DNA of 64,000 nt from Bifidobacterium coryneforme. Its GTDB lineage: Bacteria > Actinomycetota > Actinomycetes > Actinomycetales > Bifidobacteriaceae. Location: assembly GCF_000737865.1 (NCBI RefSeq), contig NZ_CP007287.1:1102872-1166871 (forward strand). The letters run 5' to 3'. Below the pieces are notes generated by a model. That model was given only the letters and a program-made list of their open reading frames with translations, had not been told where the DNA came from and did no database searches. Positions 1 to 52,973 of the stretch are shown here, piece by piece. Numbering within the stretch: position 1 is the first letter of the stretch; each line of letters opens with the position of its first letter. The translations under genes and the position numbers were made by a program.

Positions 1-595
1 TGACGAGGAAGTTGGAACCGAACCGGTAGCTCTCCTCACTGGCACCGATAAAAAGCACCTCCCTGTGCCCCAACCGGTAGAACTCATCCATGGCCATCCT
101 GCCCATGGACTCAAAGTCCATGTCCACGGAAACGACATCGGCATGATTCTCGGCACAACCGATTGAAACATAAGGCACCATGGAGGTCCGAGCATGCGCC
201 ACCCGTTCATCGTCGGTGTTGACGTCCAGCAGGAGAACCCCATCAACCATGCCGCTGTACGACATGCGCAGAAGCTCATCCTCCTCGTTCTCATCCGTCA
301 GCAGGACCACATTGTAGTGATATCGGCGAGCCCTGGCCACGACGGCGAAGAAGAAGGTGGCGTAGTTGCTGTAATCGGTATAGCTGTGCATGGGGGAACT
401 CAGGGCGATCAACCTGGTCCGCGCCCCCTGCCGAAGCATGACCGCCCCCTTCTTCGGGCGGTAGTCCAGAAGACGTACAGCCTCCAGGACCCTCAGCTTG
501 GTCTCGTCGCTGACCCGACGCTTTCCTGAGAGAGCATACGAAACGGTGCTGATGGAGACTCCAGCTTGAGCGGCAACGTCTTTGATTCCGGCCAC
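1..595 (-). CDS. LacI-family transcriptional regulator (3' end cut by window)
   Basis: Only the N-terminal ~198 residues are in the window; the gene runs off the left edge. The reading begins with the classic LacI helix-turn-helix (AGIKDVAAQAGVSISTVSYALSG), a hinge helix (KLRVLEAVRLLDYRPKKGAVMLRQG) and then a periplasmic-binding-protein-like effector domain (TRLIALSSPMHSYTDYSNY, later VVSVDMDFESMGRMAMDEF). I chose the GTG start at 595 because AGGAGG lies four bases upstream and the helix-turn-helix starts at once. Such proteins repress sugar-utilisation operons and are released by a sugar. The target is probably to the left of the window, so the ligand cannot be named. The family call is firm. 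Confidence 0.93.
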   Translation of the reverse strand, partial: MAGIKDVAAQAGVSISTVSYALSGKRRVSDETKLRVLEAVRLLDYRPKKGAVMLRQGARTRLIALSSPMHSYTDYSNYATFFFAVVARARRYHYNVVLLTDENEEDELLRMSYSGMVDGVLLLDVNTDDERVAHARTSMVPYVSIGCAENHADVVSVDMDFESMGRMAMDEFYRLGHREVLFIGASEESYRFGSNFLV

Positions 596-629
596 GTGAC
601 CTCCTGCAACAAGGGGAAACTGGGCATGA

Positions 630-717: not shown

Positions 718-1527
718 TCAGGGCCTGGGACCGTTCGAAAGCCAGAGCAGGTATTCGATATTGCCGTGTGCTCCGGTAATGGGCGACGGTATCCGCCCCC
801 TGACCTCGAAGCCGGACTCCTCGGCACACCTGGTCACACGCTCCACAGCCTGGACACGACGGTCCTCCTCGGTGACCACGCCATGGTGGCCGAGGAGTGT
901 TCTGCCGACTTCGAACTGGGGCTTTATCAGGAGAATGCAGTGGGTATCCGGGGCAATGATGGCCGGCAGGACGGGAATCACATAGGTCAGGGAGATGAAG
1001 GAGACATCAGAGACCACATAGTCCGGCCGGTAGGGCAGATCGTCAGGTCCGACATCGCGGATATTGACGCCGCTCATCTCAAGGACCCTGGAATCCCGGG
1101 CAATCCGGTCAATCAGCTGGTCCTGCCCCACATCCAGGGCAACCACCCTGCTCGCCCCCCTGCGTAGAAGGAGATCAGTGAAACCACCGGTTGAGGCACC
1201 GATGTCCAGACAATGACGGCCTTCCGGCCCCGGTAGCCCCATGGGTTCGAAGGCTTCAAAGGCACCGGCCAACTTATAGGCGCCACGGGAGGCATAGTCG
1301 GCCCCCTTGTCGACCTCGATCAGGTCGCCTGTCTTCACCTTGGTCGATGGCTTTGTGCAAACGGTGCCCGAGAGGCGGACCGATCCATCCTGAATCAACC
1401 TTTGGGCCCTGGAGCGGGAATCCGCAAGGCCCAGATCCTGGATGACACGATCCAGACGGCCCGGCTCTACGACCTGGGCACCCGACCCTGCGTCTTCCAT
1501 GGATTCGGGGGAATCAGTCCTGTCCAT
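718..1527 (-). CDS. tlyA: TlyA family rRNA (cytidine-2'-O)-methyltransferase / hemolysin A family
   Basis: TlyA-family enzymes 2'-O-methylate cytidines in 16S and 23S rRNA. The protein of about 269 residues has an N-terminal S4 RNA-binding domain (RLDRVIQDLGLADSRSRAQ, then GDLIEVD). An FtsJ-like SAM-dependent methyltransferase fold follows, with the SAM loop DIGASTGGFTDLLLRRGA and later VVSDVSFISLTYVIP and LIKPQFEVG. I preferred the ATG at 1527 over upstream in-frame starts because GAAGGAG precedes it and the S4 domain begins soon after. It overlaps the 3' end of the small gene upstream by 14 bases, so translation is probably coupled. The operon also carries a HAD phosphatase and tyrS. The family is sure; the exact nucleotide target is inferred. 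Confidence 0.92.
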   Translation of the reverse strand: MDRTDSPESMEDAGSGAQVVEPGRLDRVIQDLGLADSRSRAQRLIQDGSVRLSGTVCTKPSTKVKTGDLIEVDKGADYASRGAYKLAGAFEAFEPMGLPGPEGRHCLDIGASTGGFTDLLLRRGASRVVALDVGQDQLIDRIARDSRVLEMSGVNIRDVGPDDLPYRPDYVVSDVSFISLTYVIPVLPAIIAPDTHCILLIKPQFEVGRTLLGHHGVVTEEDRRVQAVERVTRCAEESGFEVRGRIPSPITGAHGNIEYLLWLSNGPRP

Positions 1528-1777
1528 GCAACTCCTTCTGGAGTGCGGCAAGGGCACTCTGATATGCCTTGACCTGGTCCTCAAGATCCAGGTCATCAAT
1601 GTGGTCCAACTCGGGGAATCGCCCGACAAGCTCCTTCATGCCCGTAGCATTCTCCCCACGGGCCGTCGGCTCCTGCGATGAGGAGGCATCGACCCGTCCG
1701 GCTTCACCAGCAGCTCGGGCCATCATTTTCAAGGGGTTGGCCTTGCTGCCACCCTGGTCGGTTCCCTGGTTGTCCAT
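1514..1777 (-). CDS. Small hypothetical protein between HAD phosphatase and TlyA
   Basis: This 87-residue reading frame (MDNQGTDQGGSKANPLKMM at the start, QSALAALQKELHGQD at the end) fills the space between the HAD phosphatase, which ends five bases upstream, and tlyA, which it overlaps by 14 bases. The N-terminal half is polar and low in complexity. The C-terminal half is a charged, amphipathic helix (DHIDDLDLEDQVKAYQSALAALQKEL). There is no signal peptide or membrane segment. No strong ribosome-binding site is visible, so translation probably depends on coupling to the upstream gene. I do not recognise the family. The tight packing supports a real gene. Confidence 0.7.
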   Translation of the reverse strand: MDNQGTDQGGSKANPLKMMARAAGEAGRVDASSSQEPTARGENATGMKELVGRFPELDHIDDLDLEDQVKAYQSALAALQKELHGQD

Positions 1778-1781
1778 ATGG

Positions 1782-2858
1782 TCAGGCACCGATTCTGAAT
1801 TGGGGAAGACGCAGGTCGTGCACATCGTGCCCCTGGTCCATGTACTCCCAAACGGCGCAGGCACTGGCCCGAACGGCGTCCAGATCCGTCCTGGGATCAT
1901 AGGTGCTCTCGACACCATCGTGTGCCTCGGAGGAGTGCAGTTCCACGGTTCCACCCCTCAGAACAGCCGTGGCGCGCCCACAATGCCAGATCTGGTCGGC
2001 GGACTTCTCGGGGGTTGCATGTGGCGTGACCAGCCCGAGGAGGTCAGCGCTGATGTAGGTGGGACGATATTTGGGTTCAGCCAGGATGATGGACTCGACA
2101 CTGGCCACGCCGGTCAGAACCACCAGGGAATCATACCCGCCCCGATTGGCCGCCTCGATATCGGTATCCAACCGGTCACCGACCGGTAGGCACTCCTTGG
2201 CGGGAATCGGCTCGGCTCCATCGGCCAGCATCTGTCGGGCCTCGTCATACATGGCGGACTCGGGCTTGCCGGCCGAAGCCTCCGGTGACTTGCCACTGGC
2301 GATTGCCACCGTTTCGACCATGGCACCGTTCCCCGGTGCTATACCCCCCTCCCGGGGGATGGTCCTGTCCATGTTGGTCGCGAAGAAGCGGGCACCCTGC
2401 CCGACGGCATAAGCGGCTGCTGCCAGATCTTCCCAGTTCTGTTTCGGGTTCCAACCCTGAATCACGGCTTCGGGATGGTCGCTTGCCGCACCCACCACTT
2501 CCAGCCCGTTGGCCCTGACCTCTTCGCGGAGATGGTCTGCGCCGATGACCAGGACCTTGGCCCCCGCATGGAGGTTATGGCGAAGCATCCTGGCGGCGAC
2601 AATGGAGGAAGTGACAATCTGACGGTCATCGAGCTCCAGCCCGAATCCACGCAGCTGGTCCGCTACGACTTTCGGGGTCCTTGACGCATTGTTGGTGGTA
2701 TAGGAAATGGTCATCCCCTGCGACTCGGCCTGGGATATACCCGTGGCCGCATTCCTGATGGGGTTGGCACCGCGGTAGACCACACCGTCCAGGTCCAAGA
2801 GGGCCAGACGGTAGGTCCGGGACAGCGAAGTCTCAATACCCTTCAGGAATGCGGTCAT
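1782..2858 (-). CDS. HAD-IIA family hydrolase (NagD / p-nitrophenyl-phosphatase-like)
   Basis: A 358-residue cytoplasmic phosphatase of the HAD superfamily, subfamily IIA. Motif I is DLDGVVYRG with the nucleophile Asp near residue 22. The cap region includes TISYTTNNASRTPKVVADQLRGFGLE, which holds the TNN of motif II. The C-terminal half has KECLPVGDRLDTDIEAANRGG, the acidic motif IV of NagD proteins. Family members hydrolyse small phosphorylated metabolites; the substrate is not evident here. GGGAGG sits eight bases before the ATG. The gene follows the RGG-TPR gene by three bases and precedes the small TlyA-linked gene by five, so it is mid-operon. The C-terminal ~50 residues after VTPHATPEKSADQIWHC extend past the usual NagD length. 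Confidence 0.92.
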   Translation of the reverse strand: MTAFLKGIETSLSRTYRLALLDLDGVVYRGANPIRNAATGISQAESQGMTISYTTNNASRTPKVVADQLRGFGLELDDRQIVTSSIVAARMLRHNLHAGAKVLVIGADHLREEVRANGLEVVGAASDHPEAVIQGWNPKQNWEDLAAAAYAVGQGARFFATNMDRTIPREGGIAPGNGAMVETVAIASGKSPEASAGKPESAMYDEARQMLADGAEPIPAKECLPVGDRLDTDIEAANRGGYDSLVVLTGVASVESIILAEPKYRPTYISADLLGLVTPHATPEKSADQIWHCGRATAVLRGGTVELHSSEAHDGVESTYDPRTDLDAVRASACAVWEYMDQGHDVHDLRLPQFRIGA

Positions 2859-2861
2859 CGA

Positions 2862-4988
2862 TCAATCCTCCCAGGTCTGGTCCATTTGGCCTGCATTGTC
2901 TGAGGCCTGATCTTCCAGGACTTCATCGGCAACAGGAGCCTGGGTGGCGCCCAAGCGCTCAGGATTGCCGTCAAGCTCTGCATCGTTCTGTTTCTTGCCC
3001 TGACCGGCAATGACCGAAGGGATCCAGCCGACCTGGGCCGGGATGACCTCTGGTCGGACGGTATCCTGACCCCAGACGAAGGTGCCGGACCGCTGCGAAT
3101 CCAGCTCATCCAGATAGTCGCCTTCACTTGGATCGATGGAGAGTTCCTCCATCATCGAGTCATCCAGATGTTCCAGGTCATAGTCAATCAGAATCTCCTT
3201 GGGGGGAGCGTCCGGGTCCTCTTCCTCGTCGGCATACTGTGCCTCGAGTTTCTCCAGGAGAGGCTCAAGCTTCAAGGCATCTTCGGACCTTCCGGCCTGA
3301 TCCAGGAAATTCTGCTCAGCCTGGACGGCACGCATCCGGTAGTCCCCGCTCAGCCCTCTGGCCTTGACCAGTGCCTGAACGGTTTCAATGGCCTTGTCCC
3401 ACAGACCCAGATCGCCAAGGGCACCGGCGTAGACCAGGAACATCTCGACCTTTGACTCACCCGTCAGCCTCTGCGCCTCTTCCGAGGTGGCTTCTTCAAT
3501 GGCCTTGCGGGCATTGCCCAGTCCCCGCTCGCAGTCCGCTATGAAGGGGAGATAATCCTGATACCCGTTCATCCGATAGGCTGTGCGGAACTCCTTCAGG
3601 GCCAGCTTGTAGTCACCCTGCCTGTATGCCACCAGGGCCAGGGTCTCCCGTGCCAGGTCAATCCTGGAAGCCTGCCTGGCAGCCCACTTGGCGTGGTCCA
3701 GCGCACCCTCCGGGTCGCTTTCCTCCAGAGCGTAGGCAGCCAGGACATGCAGGCCGATGTTCTCGGCATGCTCCTTGCTCAGACCGCGCAGGCGCTCACG
3801 TTCATCCTTGGAGAGCATGGACCACTCAAGTCCCTTGGGCATTTTCGGCTCACCCGGACGGCGGTCCGTATACGGATTCTGCGAGGGATAGGAGATGGTT
3901 CCGTCCGAATTGCGGCGGGCCTGGTCATATCCTTCGTGGCGGTCCCGCTGATAGAAGCCCCTGCGGTTGTCGCCGCGATCGTTTCTCCGATCATAGCCAC
4001 GGTTGCCGCCACGGTCGTCGCGCCTGTTGTAGCCGCGCTGGTCCCTGTGGTCACCATGGCGGTCGAAGCCGTTGTCGCGGCGCCGATCGTCGTTTCGATC
4101 CCGGCGACCCTCGCCGTAGCCGCCGGACCTGCGATTGTCGTAACGATCGTCGCGGCGCTGATACCCACGGTCATCACGACGCTGGTGGTTGTCATCCCTA
4201 CGACCATAGGTACGGCCATTCCCATGCCTGTCATCACGGCGGTCGTTGCGGCGATCATTGCCCCGTGAATATCCGCGGTTGTCGTCCCTGCGGAATCCAC
4301 CCCGGTCATCACGACGCTCGAACCTGCGGTCCTGGCCCTGATGCCCGTCTTCACGGCGCCTGTCATCCTGACGCCGATCGTCTCGGCGTTGATACCCACG
4401 ATCCTGACCCTGTCGACGGTCATGGAAGCCGCCGCCACGGTTGGAGCCGTACCCGCCACGACCACCGGAACGGCCACGGTATCCGTCGCGATCCCCGTTG
4501 TCGGAGCGGTAGCCCCCACGGTCATCACGATTATCCCTGTTCCGGAAGTCCCGACGATCGTCACCATCGCGGCGGTCGTACCCTCTGCGATGGTCGTATC
4601 CGCCATGACCGTTGCCGTCGTTGCGGCGACCCTGGTAGCCACCACGGCGGTTACCATCCTGCCGGCGGTCACCATACCCGGAGCGCCGATCATCACGACG
4701 GTCATGGTCGTTATGGCGGTATGAACCCTGCCGGTCATCGCGCCTGCGGTCACCGCCCTGGCCCTCCTGCCGGTCACGATTGCCGTGGAAGTCATCCCTG
4801 CCGTGACGGAACCCGCCTGAACGTGAACCTCCGCGATAGCCGCCGCCCCTGGAATCCGAGGACCCGTGGCCCTTGTAGCCGCCCTTGCCGCGGTAGCCCG
4901 AGTGCTGGCCGCCGGAGCGGAAACCTCCCGAGCGAGGGCCGTCGGAGTGGCCCCGGTCGTTGCGGGAGCGATTGTATTCTTCTGCCAT
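2862..4988 (-). CDS. RGG/RDDR-rich disordered, TPR-like protein with acidic tail
   Basis: A 708-residue protein in three blocks. Residues 1-365 are extreme low complexity, almost only Arg, Gly, Asp, Asn, Tyr, His and Ser, with repeats such as RRDDRGGYR, GYQRRDDR and GGYR: an RGG-box, polyampholyte region expected to be disordered and to bind RNA. Residues 400-580 are helical and TPR-like (LDHAKWAARQASRIDLARETLALVAY, ALKEFRTAYRM, DKAIETVQALVKA). Residues 586-708 are acidic with a GTFVWGQDTVRP segment. There is no signal peptide or membrane span. AAAGGACACAG precedes the ATG. It starts 15 bases after tyrS and is followed by a HAD phosphatase, so it belongs to a translation-linked operon. A role in RNA or ribosome assemblies is inference; I know no described function. 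Confidence 0.88.
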   Translation of the reverse strand: MAEEYNRSRNDRGHSDGPRSGGFRSGGQHSGYRGKGGYKGHGSSDSRGGGYRGGSRSGGFRHGRDDFHGNRDRQEGQGGDRRRDDRQGSYRHNDHDRRDDRRSGYGDRRQDGNRRGGYQGRRNDGNGHGGYDHRRGYDRRDGDDRRDFRNRDNRDDRGGYRSDNGDRDGYRGRSGGRGGYGSNRGGGFHDRRQGQDRGYQRRDDRRQDDRRREDGHQGQDRRFERRDDRGGFRRDDNRGYSRGNDRRNDRRDDRHGNGRTYGRRDDNHQRRDDRGYQRRDDRYDNRRSGGYGEGRRDRNDDRRRDNGFDRHGDHRDQRGYNRRDDRGGNRGYDRRNDRGDNRRGFYQRDRHEGYDQARRNSDGTISYPSQNPYTDRRPGEPKMPKGLEWSMLSKDERERLRGLSKEHAENIGLHVLAAYALEESDPEGALDHAKWAARQASRIDLARETLALVAYRQGDYKLALKEFRTAYRMNGYQDYLPFIADCERGLGNARKAIEEATSEEAQRLTGESKVEMFLVYAGALGDLGLWDKAIETVQALVKARGLSGDYRMRAVQAEQNFLDQAGRSEDALKLEPLLEKLEAQYADEEEDPDAPPKEILIDYDLEHLDDSMMEELSIDPSEGDYLDELDSQRSGTFVWGQDTVRPEVIPAQVGWIPSVIAGQGKKQNDAELDGNPERLGATQAPVADEVLEDQASDNAGQMDQTWED
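3894..4988 (-). repeat. Low-complexity RGG/RDDR coding repeat
   Basis: About 1.1 kb coding for degenerate tandem units of the type RRDDRGGYR / YDRR / NDRR. The DNA shows the same drift, with frequent CGG, CGT, GAC and GGC codons. Units differ in length and are not perfect copies, so this is a protein-level repeat rather than a simple satellite. The complementary strand reads as an artificial hydrophobic frame because of this bias. Confidence 0.85.
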
Positions 4989-5003: not shown

Positions 5004-6335
5004 CTACTTGGCGGCCTGGCGTTCGAGAGCGCCCAAGGCCTTCTTTCCTCTGCGAATCAGGGCAAAGCGCCCATGCAGAAAGTCATTCTCGTCCAGGACC
5101 ATGTCCTGGTCCTCCACCCGCTGATTGTTCAGGTAGAGACCACCCGACTTGATGGTCTTCCGGGCCTCGGATACCGATTTGAAAAGGCCTGCACCAACTC
5201 CGGCCTCCGCTACGCGCTGTCCAACCTGAGCGGCGGCGAAGACCCGACTACCGTCGGCTCCCTCCACCTTGAGGCCGTCCAGGGCGCTGTCGAGCACATC
5301 TTCGTCCAACTCCTCCAGGGTCTTTCCACGGCCAAAGAGGGCACCGGAGGCATCAATGGCCCCCTGGGCGGCATGATCGCCGTGTACGTAGCTGGTGACC
5401 TCCCAGGCCAGGACCTTCTGGGCCTCTCGGGCTCCAGGATTGGCGGCCACCTCACGTTCCAGTTCCTCGATCCTGGTCTTGGAGAGGAAGGTGAAGGTCT
5501 TCAGAAGCTTGACCACCTGGTCGTCGGACTGGTTGAACCAGAACTGATAGAAGCGGTAGGGACTGAACATTGTCGAGTCCAACCAGACGGCGTTCCCTTC
5601 GGACTTGCCGAACTTCTTGCCCTGGGAATCCGTAATCAGTGGGCTGGTCATGACATTAACCGAGGCTCCACGAACCTTGCGGATCAGGTCGAGCCCGGAG
5701 GTCAAATTCCCCCACTGGTCGCTTCCACCCAGCTGAAGGGTGCAGTGGTAGCGATCGAAGAGCTCCAGGAAGTCGTTGCCCTGCAGAACCTGGTAACTGA
5801 ACTCGGTGAAGGAGATCCCCTCGTCGGAGTTGAGCCGGCGCGCCACGGTGTCCTTGGCCAGCATGGTCCCCATGCGGAAGTTCTTGCCCACGTCACGCAG
5901 GAAGTCGATGACGCTCATGGACCCGGTCCACTCGAAGTTGTTGACGAAACGGACAGCCTGCTCGCCCTCGGTATCCAGGAAGCGGCCAATCTGCCTGCGC
6001 AGGCGCTCAGTCCACTCGGAAACGGTCTCCTTGGGGTTCAGCGTCCGCTCCCCCGACTGGCGGGGATCGCCAATCAGCCCGGTGGCACCGCCGACCACGG
6101 CTATGGGATGGAGACCTGCGGCTTGGAGGTGACGCATGTTGAGCAGCTGGACAAGATTGCCCACGTGAAGGGAGGGGGCGGTCGGATCGAATCCGCAATA
6201 ATAGGTCACCGATTCATCGCTCAGGGTCTTCTTGAGCTCGACCTCATCCGTGCACTGGGCTATGAGACCGCGCCACTTGAGCTCGTCGAAGAGCGAGTCG
6301 AAGCCCGCTTCCTTGAAATCAGTGACCTGCGCCAT
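5004..6335 (-). CDS. tyrS: Tyrosyl-tRNA synthetase
   Basis: Class I aminoacyl-tRNA synthetase that charges tRNA-Tyr in the cytoplasm. Visible marks are [17 protein letters not shown] (the HIGH-like HVGN motif), [19 protein letters not shown] for tyrosine and tRNA handling, and [13 protein letters not shown] (the KMSKS-like loop). A C-terminal S4 RNA-binding domain follows ([24 protein letters not shown]). The length of 443 residues is normal. I took the ATG at 6335, nine bases after GGGAG; an in-frame TTG three codons upstream is less likely. It heads the operon that continues with the RGG-TPR protein. Confidence 0.97.
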
Positions 6336-6364
6336 GTGAGGCAACTCCCTATCAAATTATCGTG

Positions 6365-6468: not shown

Positions 6469-7203
6469 TCAGGCGGCACGGAGCTCATCTATGAAAGACT
6501 CGGGCAACTTGCCCACCACACAATAAGCCATGCGTCGATAGCCTTCACGCCCAGGATGGAAGTGATCGATACCCCAGAAGTCCTCCCGGTCCGTACCGAC
6601 ATCGTCATGAGTGGCATCCACGTAGGTCACACCCGCCCGGGCACAGACCTCCTTGCTGATCGCGGTCTGCCGGTCGATCCGCCGCTCCACCTCAGCCCGC
6701 AGGGCCCTGCCCAGGGCGGGATCGCGATAGAGCTGGCCCGAACTGAGGACCAGGACCCGGTTCCCCTTGGACTTGGCCTCTTCGAGGGTGGCGTCCAGAT
6801 CGGTCCGCCATTCATCCCAGGACCTATTGGCCATGATGTCATTGGAACCGGCGCAAACCACCAGAAGGTCGGCATGGCCGGTGAAGCCCGGAAGAAGCCG
6901 GTAACGCACCCGCCGGATGGTGGCCCCCAGCCGACCGTGAGCCGACCATTGCACCGATCTGCCCATACGTGATGCCAGTGCCTGTGCGATGGCGGGAATG
7001 AATCCCTGGTTTTGATCCGTAACGCCACATCCAACCGCCATGGAGTCTCCAATGGCGACCAGGGTCAGCGGACCGGCCCCGGAATGGTGGATATCCGACC
7101 CCTCCGGCACCGAACAGATCCCTTGGCGTTCCCCCGCCGGTTCCGCCGCCAACTTCACATGATGCTTGGCCCACCAGGCCTCGACCAGCACCACCGGGTT
7201 CAT
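6469..7203 (-). CDS. SGNH/GDSL-family hydrolase
   Basis: A lipase/esterase-like hydrolase of the SGNH superfamily. Block I is LVAIGDSMAVGCG with Ser about residue 54, block III is VVCAGSNDIMAN, and block V is WGIDHFHPGREGY, giving the Asp-x-x-His pair. The Gly of block II is in GRLGATIRRVRYRL. There is no signal peptide or membrane anchor, so a cytoplasmic role on acylated sugars or lipids is more likely than secretion, but the substrate is unknown. The ATG at 7203 was used; an in-frame GTG at 7212 is equally possible, with AAGGGAAGG just upstream. The gene is alone, between tyrS and argH. Confidence 0.88.
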   Translation of the reverse strand: MNPVVLVEAWWAKHHVKLAAEPAGERQGICSVPEGSDIHHSGAGPLTLVAIGDSMAVGCGVTDQNQGFIPAIAQALASRMGRSVQWSAHGRLGATIRRVRYRLLPGFTGHADLLVVCAGSNDIMANRSWDEWRTDLDATLEEAKSKGNRVLVLSSGQLYRDPALGRALRAEVERRIDRQTAISKEVCARAGVTYVDATHDDVGTDREDFWGIDHFHPGREGYRRMAYCVVGKLPESFIDELRAA

Positions 7204-7219
7204 ACCTACCACTGCCTTC

Positions 7220-26220: not shown

Positions 26221-26268
26221 GTGCCTTTCCGTAAGCACACCCTTGGGTGCGCATCCTGTTCAAGGCAC
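26221..26268 (-). promoter_or_regulatory. Expression platform of the TPP riboswitch
   Basis: In the mRNA, GTGCCTT (complement of 26262-26268) can pair with AAGGCAC (complement of 26221-26227), which contains the ribosome-binding AAAGG of ykoE. An inner hairpin (26235-26252, GCGCACCC/GGGTGTGC) stacks beneath. The layout suggests control of translation by hiding the ribosome site rather than a U-tailed terminator. Confidence 0.55.
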
Positions 26269-26276
26269 GGGTTGAG

Positions 26277-26378
26277 TGACATCCGTGCGCCGGCATTACC
26301 CGGTAAACGTTCGTCCGGTCGAGGCTGAGCCTCCTCTCAGCCACACGCTGCTCTGCAGCATGCGGCCCCCGTGTCACC
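26277..26378 (-). promoter_or_regulatory. TPP (THI-box) riboswitch
   Basis: Read on the minus strand, the leader has ACACGGGGGCC at the 5' side, the near-invariant GTGTGGCTGAGAGG of the pyrimidine sensor helix, then GAACGTTTACCGGGTAATGCCG and GGCGCACGGA at the 3' side. These are the hallmark segments of the thiamin pyrophosphate aptamer. It lies upstream of ykoE, which fits thiamin-related transport. It should lower expression when TPP is plentiful. Confidence 0.93.
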
Positions 26379-26401
26379 ACCTACTTTAGGACCAGCCTTG
26401 G

Positions 26402-52677: not shown

Positions 52678-52838
52678 GCCTCCATTGTTGCACCTCCGGA
52701 GACCGAACAGGCGAGCGCGGCGGAACATCCGCAGGATGTACTCCCCGCAGTGTGGGTATCGATCCGTATTGGGCCGATGTGTCATTGGATACAGAGGTTT
52801 GACCTCCATATGGCCCACTGCTAGATTGAAACCGTCAA

Positions 52839-52963
52839 GTTTCAGGGAAGGTGAGAGTCCTTACTGGCGGTATCCGGTTGCAATCCGGGAGCCCGCGACC
52901 CGCGCGAGCGGTGGATATCGGTGAGAGTCCGAAGCCAACGGTTACAGTCCGGATGAAAGAAAC
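52839..52963 (+). promoter_or_regulatory. FMN riboswitch
   Basis: The leader of ribU has TTTCAGGGAAGGTGAGAGTCC, GGCGGTATCC, AGCCCGCGACCC, GGATATCGGTGAGAGTCCG, AAGCCAACGG and AGTCCGGATGAAAG: the conserved blocks of the RFN element. P1 can form from GTTTC (52839-52843) and GAAAC (52959-52963). The ribosome-binding GAGG of ribU follows P1 at once, so FMN binding could block translation. Confidence 0.95.
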
Positions 52964-52973
52964 GAGGCTCTAT

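Follow-up and report, generated by a model that had tools for sequence, protein, structure and literature searches.

Closest described systems

The closest described counterpart of the gene analysed here is the mycobacterial Rv1691/MSMEG_3754, which encodes a TPR protein and stands in an operon listed as lprJ, Rv1691, Rv1692, Rv1693, tlyA, ppnK and recN (PMC3072309). MSMEG_3754 (Rv1691) was a match in affinity purification–mass spectrometry (AP-MS) of RNA polymerase, where a FLAG pull-down came without DNA and the authors remarked that it "may simply be RNA associated"; metabolic contaminants were also recovered (PMC7092591). It is further listed in a ClpC1 interactome (PMC10433963). Our search of the open-access literature returned no published function for Rv1691/MSMEG_3754, only these AP-MS and interactome mentions and operon lists, and found nothing on this TPR family among papers on bacterial RGG or Arg-rich proteins; the first-pass annotation had likewise known of no published function.

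The RG/RGG proteins FUS, LAF-1 and SERBP1, the last a eukaryotic RGG protein, share with the present protein a disordered arm rich in R, G, D and Y, with both Tyr and Phe, and such an R/G/aromatic composition has been associated with RNA binding and with phase separation. In most eukaryotes, low-complexity domains of the GR and RG type are connected with RNA binding (PMC11132505). Unlike FUS, LAF-1 and SERBP1, the present protein has no tri-RGG and no enrichment in RGG; its repeat is the polyampholyte RRDDR, and its folded part is a TPR core rather than any known RNA-binding domain. The scaffold regions of RNase E and the BR-bodies offer a bacterial parallel of a disordered, Arg-rich region, and segments of this kind also occur in the host RNase E/G and PNPase; however, the TPR protein has no nuclease domain. 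With the generic TPR adaptors (YrrB, MamA, LGN and consensus TPR) it shares the superhelix, which is predicted, as a fold match only.

The gene and its neighbours

The window is the whole 64,000-nucleotide stretch of Bifidobacterium coryneforme analysed here, and the host genome is one contig of 1,755,151 bp. The gene, its parts and its neighbours are as follows.

2862..4988, minus strand: whole gene, 708 aa, with disordered arm, TPR core and acidic tail; an open frame with core homologues in 151/151 family genomes and purifying selection on each of the three parts
3891..4988, minus strand: arm, residues 1–366, disordered and R/G/D/Y-rich, net charge +30, RRDDR eight times (composition, shuffles, FoldIndex -0.65, pLDDT, dN/dS)
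3225..3890, minus strand: residues 367–588, conserved PSQNPYTDRRP linker and predicted TPR superhelix (sub-cut-off Pfam TPR matches, confident AlphaFold2 model, generic TPR fold matches)
2865..3224, minus strand: residues 589–708, acidic disordered tail opening with the conserved motif ILIDYDLE..LSI (net charge, motif conservation in Bifidobacteriaceae, low pLDDT)
5004..6344, minus strand: tyrS, 15 bp upstream of the TPR gene (Pfam/NCBIfam)
1782..2858, minus strand: HAD-IIA phosphatase, 3 bp downstream of the TPR gene, in the position of the Rv1692 orthologue (Pfam/NCBIfam)
1514..1777, minus strand: small ORF, 87 aa, in the Rv1693 position, exact start uncertain (ORF listing; gene order in PMC3072309)
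718..1527, minus strand: tlyA, rRNA 2'-O-methyltransferase, exact start uncertain (Pfam FtsJ and S4; NCBIfam TlyA slightly under the curated cut-off)

By sequence scan, a promoter-like site precedes tyrS, and no terminator-like site was found on the minus strand from tyrS to tlyA. Among 80 bifidobacterial loci, tyrS lies upstream of the TPR gene in 78 (the remaining two are near contig ends), the HAD gene lies downstream in all, and the order tyrS-TPR-HAD-TlyA recurs in 78. Pfam/NCBIfam and these 78 loci thus bear out TyrS and TlyA as the neighbours named in the first-pass annotation. The order TPR-HAD-(small ORF)-tlyA in the window is the published mycobacterial one, and TPR-HAD-TlyA also occurs in Mycobacterium-like loci, a label that, like 'Streptomyces-like' and others outside Bifidobacteriaceae, we infer partly from gene order. 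Rv1691/MSMEG_3754 and the bifidobacterial gene have in common a TPR protein, the downstream order TPR-HAD-small-tlyA (loci L193, L288 and L289) and a core that one profile detects in single copy, whereas in the Mycobacterium-like forms the Arg-rich N-terminus is short and free of RDDR repeats and the acidic tail is nearly missing.

A class-wide family with an arm of variable length

Profile searches place the TPR core in all 151 family genomes, in 270 of 297 genomes of the class and in 82 of 198 drawn from the phylum, a set that includes members of the class; a genome nearly always has a single copy. In 51 of 53 distant loci, the stretch that precedes the core is rich in Arg and net basic. Across the class, the length of this arm runs from tens of residues in deep and Mycobacterium-like lineages to hundreds, with RRDDR, in Streptomyces-like ones; the longest open frames in the family reach 1352 aa. 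On profile matches and gene order, the gene represents in bifidobacteria an unstudied TPR family of actinobacteria, and its positional orthologue is Rv1691/MSMEG_3754.

Since short-armed homologues without RDDR occur in other lineages, the long RDDR arm is best read as a selected elaboration on this class-wide family. The first-pass annotation had named repeat-free homologues with full function as what would count against its reading; in other lineages, all that remains of the arm is indeed short, basic and free of RDDR repeats, which bears out the repeat-free half of that description and not the full function of those homologues. In one divergent family member (L050), the basic low-complexity stretch is C-terminal rather than N-terminal.

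Composition and repeats of the arm

Residues 1–366 comprise 27.6% R, 20.8% G, 18.0% D and 6.0% Y, with 22 Tyr and 9 Phe as aromatics, aliphatic residues nearly absent and a net charge of +30. The FoldIndex is -0.65, and the AlphaFold2 pLDDT stays below 50 across residues 1–355. The Arg/Gly/Asp/Tyr-rich disordered stretch first described from the sequence is confirmed by all three measures. RRDDR occurs eight times against 0.24 expected from shuffles, a count reached in 0 of 2000, whereas RGG, also present eight times, is expected 4.3 times from composition and reached that count in 110 of 2000 shuffles. The protein contains no tri-RGG or tri-RG cluster, only di-RGG (two) and di-RG. The motif enriched beyond composition is RRDDR, not RGG, and of the initial label 'RGG/RDDR-rich' the second half is exact and the first is loose.

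The eight RRDDR copies are encoded by different codons and DNA-level tandem repeats are almost absent, which argues for repetition at the protein level and not for recent DNA expansion; tandem-repeat expansion of the DNA as the origin of the arm was rejected on these grounds.

TPR core and acidic tail

AlphaFold2 models the core as a superhelix, mostly at pLDDT above 90, while Pfam TPR matches to its sequence are weak and under cut-off. The model aligns with consensus TPR, LGN, MamA and YrrB at VIA-align Z of about 12–15, with identity of only 10–17%; these matches to the predicted structure are generic TPR and uninformative on function. By sequence, no solved homologue was found except a designed repeat protein (E 0.037), and Pfam gave no match to a known RNA-binding domain or to RNase_E_G in the protein. 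The C-terminal 121 residues carry a net charge of -27 and are mostly disordered, with low pLDDT; the motif at the start of the tail is conserved in Bifidobacteriaceae, with the family consensus VIDYDLE...LGI. Structure and disorder prediction (AlphaFold2, FoldIndex), the check proposed with the first-pass annotation, returned a disordered arm and a confident TPR superhelix; the helical-repeat core that it had described holds, by the model and the fold matches, as does the acidic tail, by its net charge of -27.

Selection and charge constraint

Between related species, dN/dS (NG86) is 0.04–0.31 in the arm, 0–0.09 in the core and 0–0.42 in the tail; in bifidobacteria all three parts are under purifying selection. 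The arm carries many indels among related species, and the comparison of repeat length across relatives, also proposed earlier, yielded a several-fold variation in arm length with frequent indels; the 78 bifidobacterial arms span 142–427 residues. Arg+Lys makes up about 28% of the arm independently of GC (rho about 0; n=78; GC 0.38–0.70). A GC-driven composition was rejected because Arg+Lys is flat over 38–70% GC, though Gly rises with GC.

The net charge of the same 78 arms averages +23 with an SD of 4.8; each of 1000 resamplings gave a larger SD, whatever the block size (null means 7.7 to 12.3, from nulls that ignore kinship), and a subset of 25 and a thinned set of 21 show the low spread too. 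Arm and tail charge are not correlated within Bifidobacteriaceae (rho -0.13 for all, 0.18 thinned). In the 53 distant loci, longer arms accompany more acidic tails (rho 0.77, kinship ignored).

Position beside the rRNA operon

Rfam scans place a 5S rRNA shortly upstream of the TPR gene in many non-bifidobacterial loci. Of 40 single-contig genomes from 19 genera outside Bifidobacteriaceae, 27 have a 5S on the same strand at most 1 kb upstream of the TPR core, a number that rises to 33 at 2.5 kb and to 37 at 6 kb; the larger distances are partly the arm itself, and in L300 and L307 other sequence intervenes. Where found, tyrS precedes the rRNA genes, giving tyrS-rrn-TPR, followed by HAD and tlyA where these are found. 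An rRNA operon between tyrS and the TPR gene is present in many actinobacterial genera (L288-L303, L305-L307) and in other classes (G475, G550, G493). That rrnB follows tyrS in mycobacteria is already known (PMC10218544); our literature search found no report of the TPR gene as next after rrn, or of the spread of this arrangement across the class or into other classes.

The 5S genes of 24 complete Bifidobacteriaceae genomes are elsewhere, with no rrn at the TPR locus, and the tyrS-TPR adjacency of bifidobacteria is most simply explained by loss of the intervening rRNA operon. Most of the 5S-TPR spacers inspected have a hairpin with a T-run after the 5S; given this terminator-like element, adjacency does not imply co-transcription with rRNA, and the position of the TPR gene may be inherited synteny.

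Compositional companions in the host proteome

Among 1294 crude ORFs (a few of them spurious) covering about 95% of the host genome, the TPR protein ranks first for Arg-rich and for R/G/D-rich 100-aa windows and for RGG count. Ranked by their most Arg-rich 100-aa window, the first four ORFs are the TPR protein and, as identified by Pfam, PNPase, a DEAD-box helicase and RNase E/G. Rho stands in the next ranks, among spurious-looking ORFs, and ranking by R/G/D content or RGG count brings up S5 and IF-2 after these. Four of these companions carry long Arg-rich low-complexity segments.

L279:17030-19891, minus strand: PNPase with a long Arg-rich low-complexity segment (Pfam)
L217:5248-7041, plus strand: DEAD-box helicase with a long Arg-rich low-complexity segment (Pfam)
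L280:14328-17204, minus strand: RNase E/G with a long Arg-rich low-complexity segment, a gene separate from that of the TPR protein (Pfam)
L283:15316-17277, minus strand: Rho with a long Arg-rich low-complexity segment (Pfam)

By their Pfam identities, all recognisable companions act on RNA or in translation. The description of such a stretch as rare in bacteria is right for the host proteome; it misleads in that the stretch is typical of this TPR family across the class.

Proposed role and alternatives

We consider it an even call that the TPR protein is an RNA- or ribosome-associated adaptor whose arm binds RNA multivalently; its RNA binding, its partners, its condensation and the role of its tail are what we infer. 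The predicted TPR superhelix would hold one or more protein partners, and the basic disordered arm would bind RNA weakly at many points, with rRNA, ribosomes or decaying mRNA as the likeliest targets. The arm may help to concentrate RNA-processing enzymes whose own arms are likewise Arg-rich (PNPase, RNase E/G, DEAD-box helicase and Rho), and the acidic tail could serve as an intramolecular counter-charge that restricts RNA binding. The adaptor reading is supported by the gene's place next to the rRNA operon outside Bifidobacteriaceae, by the RNA-decay and translation proteins that match it best in composition, by the basic arm in distant loci, the GC-independent Arg+Lys, the tight net charge and the low dN/dS, by the relation of arm length to tail acidity in distant loci (with kinship ignored), by the recovery of MSMEG_3754 with RNA polymerase without detectable DNA (PMC7092591), and by the neighbours tyrS and tlyA, which act in translation. 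It is weakened by the shrinkage of the arm to tens of residues without RDDR in several lineages, by the possibility that rrn adjacency, with its terminator-like hairpins and its loss in Bifidobacteriaceae, is inherited synteny, by the contaminants in the AP-MS data, by TPR-HAD fusions that suggest a phosphatase partner, and by the uncorrelated arm and tail charges within Bifidobacteriaceae. The link to RNA handling or translation drawn by the first-pass annotation is strengthened by two observations independent of each other, rrn adjacency outside bifidobacteria and the resemblance of the arm to those of RNA-decay and translation machinery; the protein is no bifidobacterial oddity but belongs to a class-wide family.

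The TPR-HAD fusions make the HAD phosphatase the best candidate partner of the core: five genomes from two genera of one Mycobacterium-like family carry TPR and HAD as a single continuous ORF (L188-L192), and HAD lies directly downstream of the TPR gene in every bifidobacterial locus and in many other lineages. It is nevertheless unlikely that the TPR part mainly binds or regulates the neighbouring HAD-IIA phosphatase (Rv1692 type), with an arm that only localises or solubilises the complex. Such a scaffold leaves the basic Arg-rich arm and the rrn position unexplained; HAD lies 1.5–4 kb from the TPR gene in other lineages, and in one family (L199, L298, L299; also L070, L075) the TPR gene has tlyA with it but no HAD detected at its side. 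The persistence of TPR and tlyA together without HAD (L199, L298, L299) suggests a HAD-independent role. A HAD partnership is, moreover, compatible with an RNA role for the arm, so that the phosphatase is either a rival or an additional partner. By analogy with SERBP1, the protein could instead be a ribosome assembly or hibernation factor that binds ribosomes or pre-rRNA directly, without scaffolding decay enzymes; the gene's place 3' of the rRNA operon, the adjoining tyrS and rRNA methyltransferase gene tlyA, and S5 and IF-2 among the compositional matches fit this, but the strongest matches are decay enzymes, and we hold this reading to be just as improbable as the phosphatase scaffold. That the arm is low-complexity sequence which expanded under near-neutrality on a conserved TPR protein, drifting in length with little function, is far less probable again. 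The several-fold length variation, the frequent indels and the short-armed homologues are what it would predict, whereas the low arm dN/dS, the repeats in different codons, the GC-independent Arg+Lys, a net charge with a smaller spread than under composition and block nulls, and a basic arm retained in nearly all distant loci all stand against it.

The adaptor reading can be extended, tentatively and with a likelihood only slightly above that of the phosphatase scaffold or of the ribosome factor, to a phylum-old family immediately 3' of rRNA operons that would act as an RNA/ribosome condensate adaptor, in which a polyampholyte Arg-Asp arm with a tuned net charge, an acidic counter-tail and a TPR hub organise enzymes of rRNA maturation or mRNA decay. 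If the adaptor reading is right, Streptomyces, mycobacteria and bifidobacteria would have in common a conserved RNA/ribosome factor, present in single copy, that escaped notice because mycobacteria carry it as a plain TPR protein of small size. With arms of tens to hundreds of residues occurring naturally on one folded core, the family provides a test bed for bacterial Arg-rich disordered arms, and the locus supplies a concrete candidate gene adjoining the rRNA operon.

Other features of the window

A defence-system role was rejected, as PADLOC gave no match. A GDSL/SGNH hydrolase gene lies at 6469-7212 (minus strand) between argH and tyrS. Downstream of tlyA, at 1-600 (minus strand), where mycobacteria have ppnK, a frame resembles a LacI-family regulator by eye only. 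Rfam places FMN and TPP riboswitches at 52834-52968 (plus strand) and 26264-26382 (minus strand), respectively.
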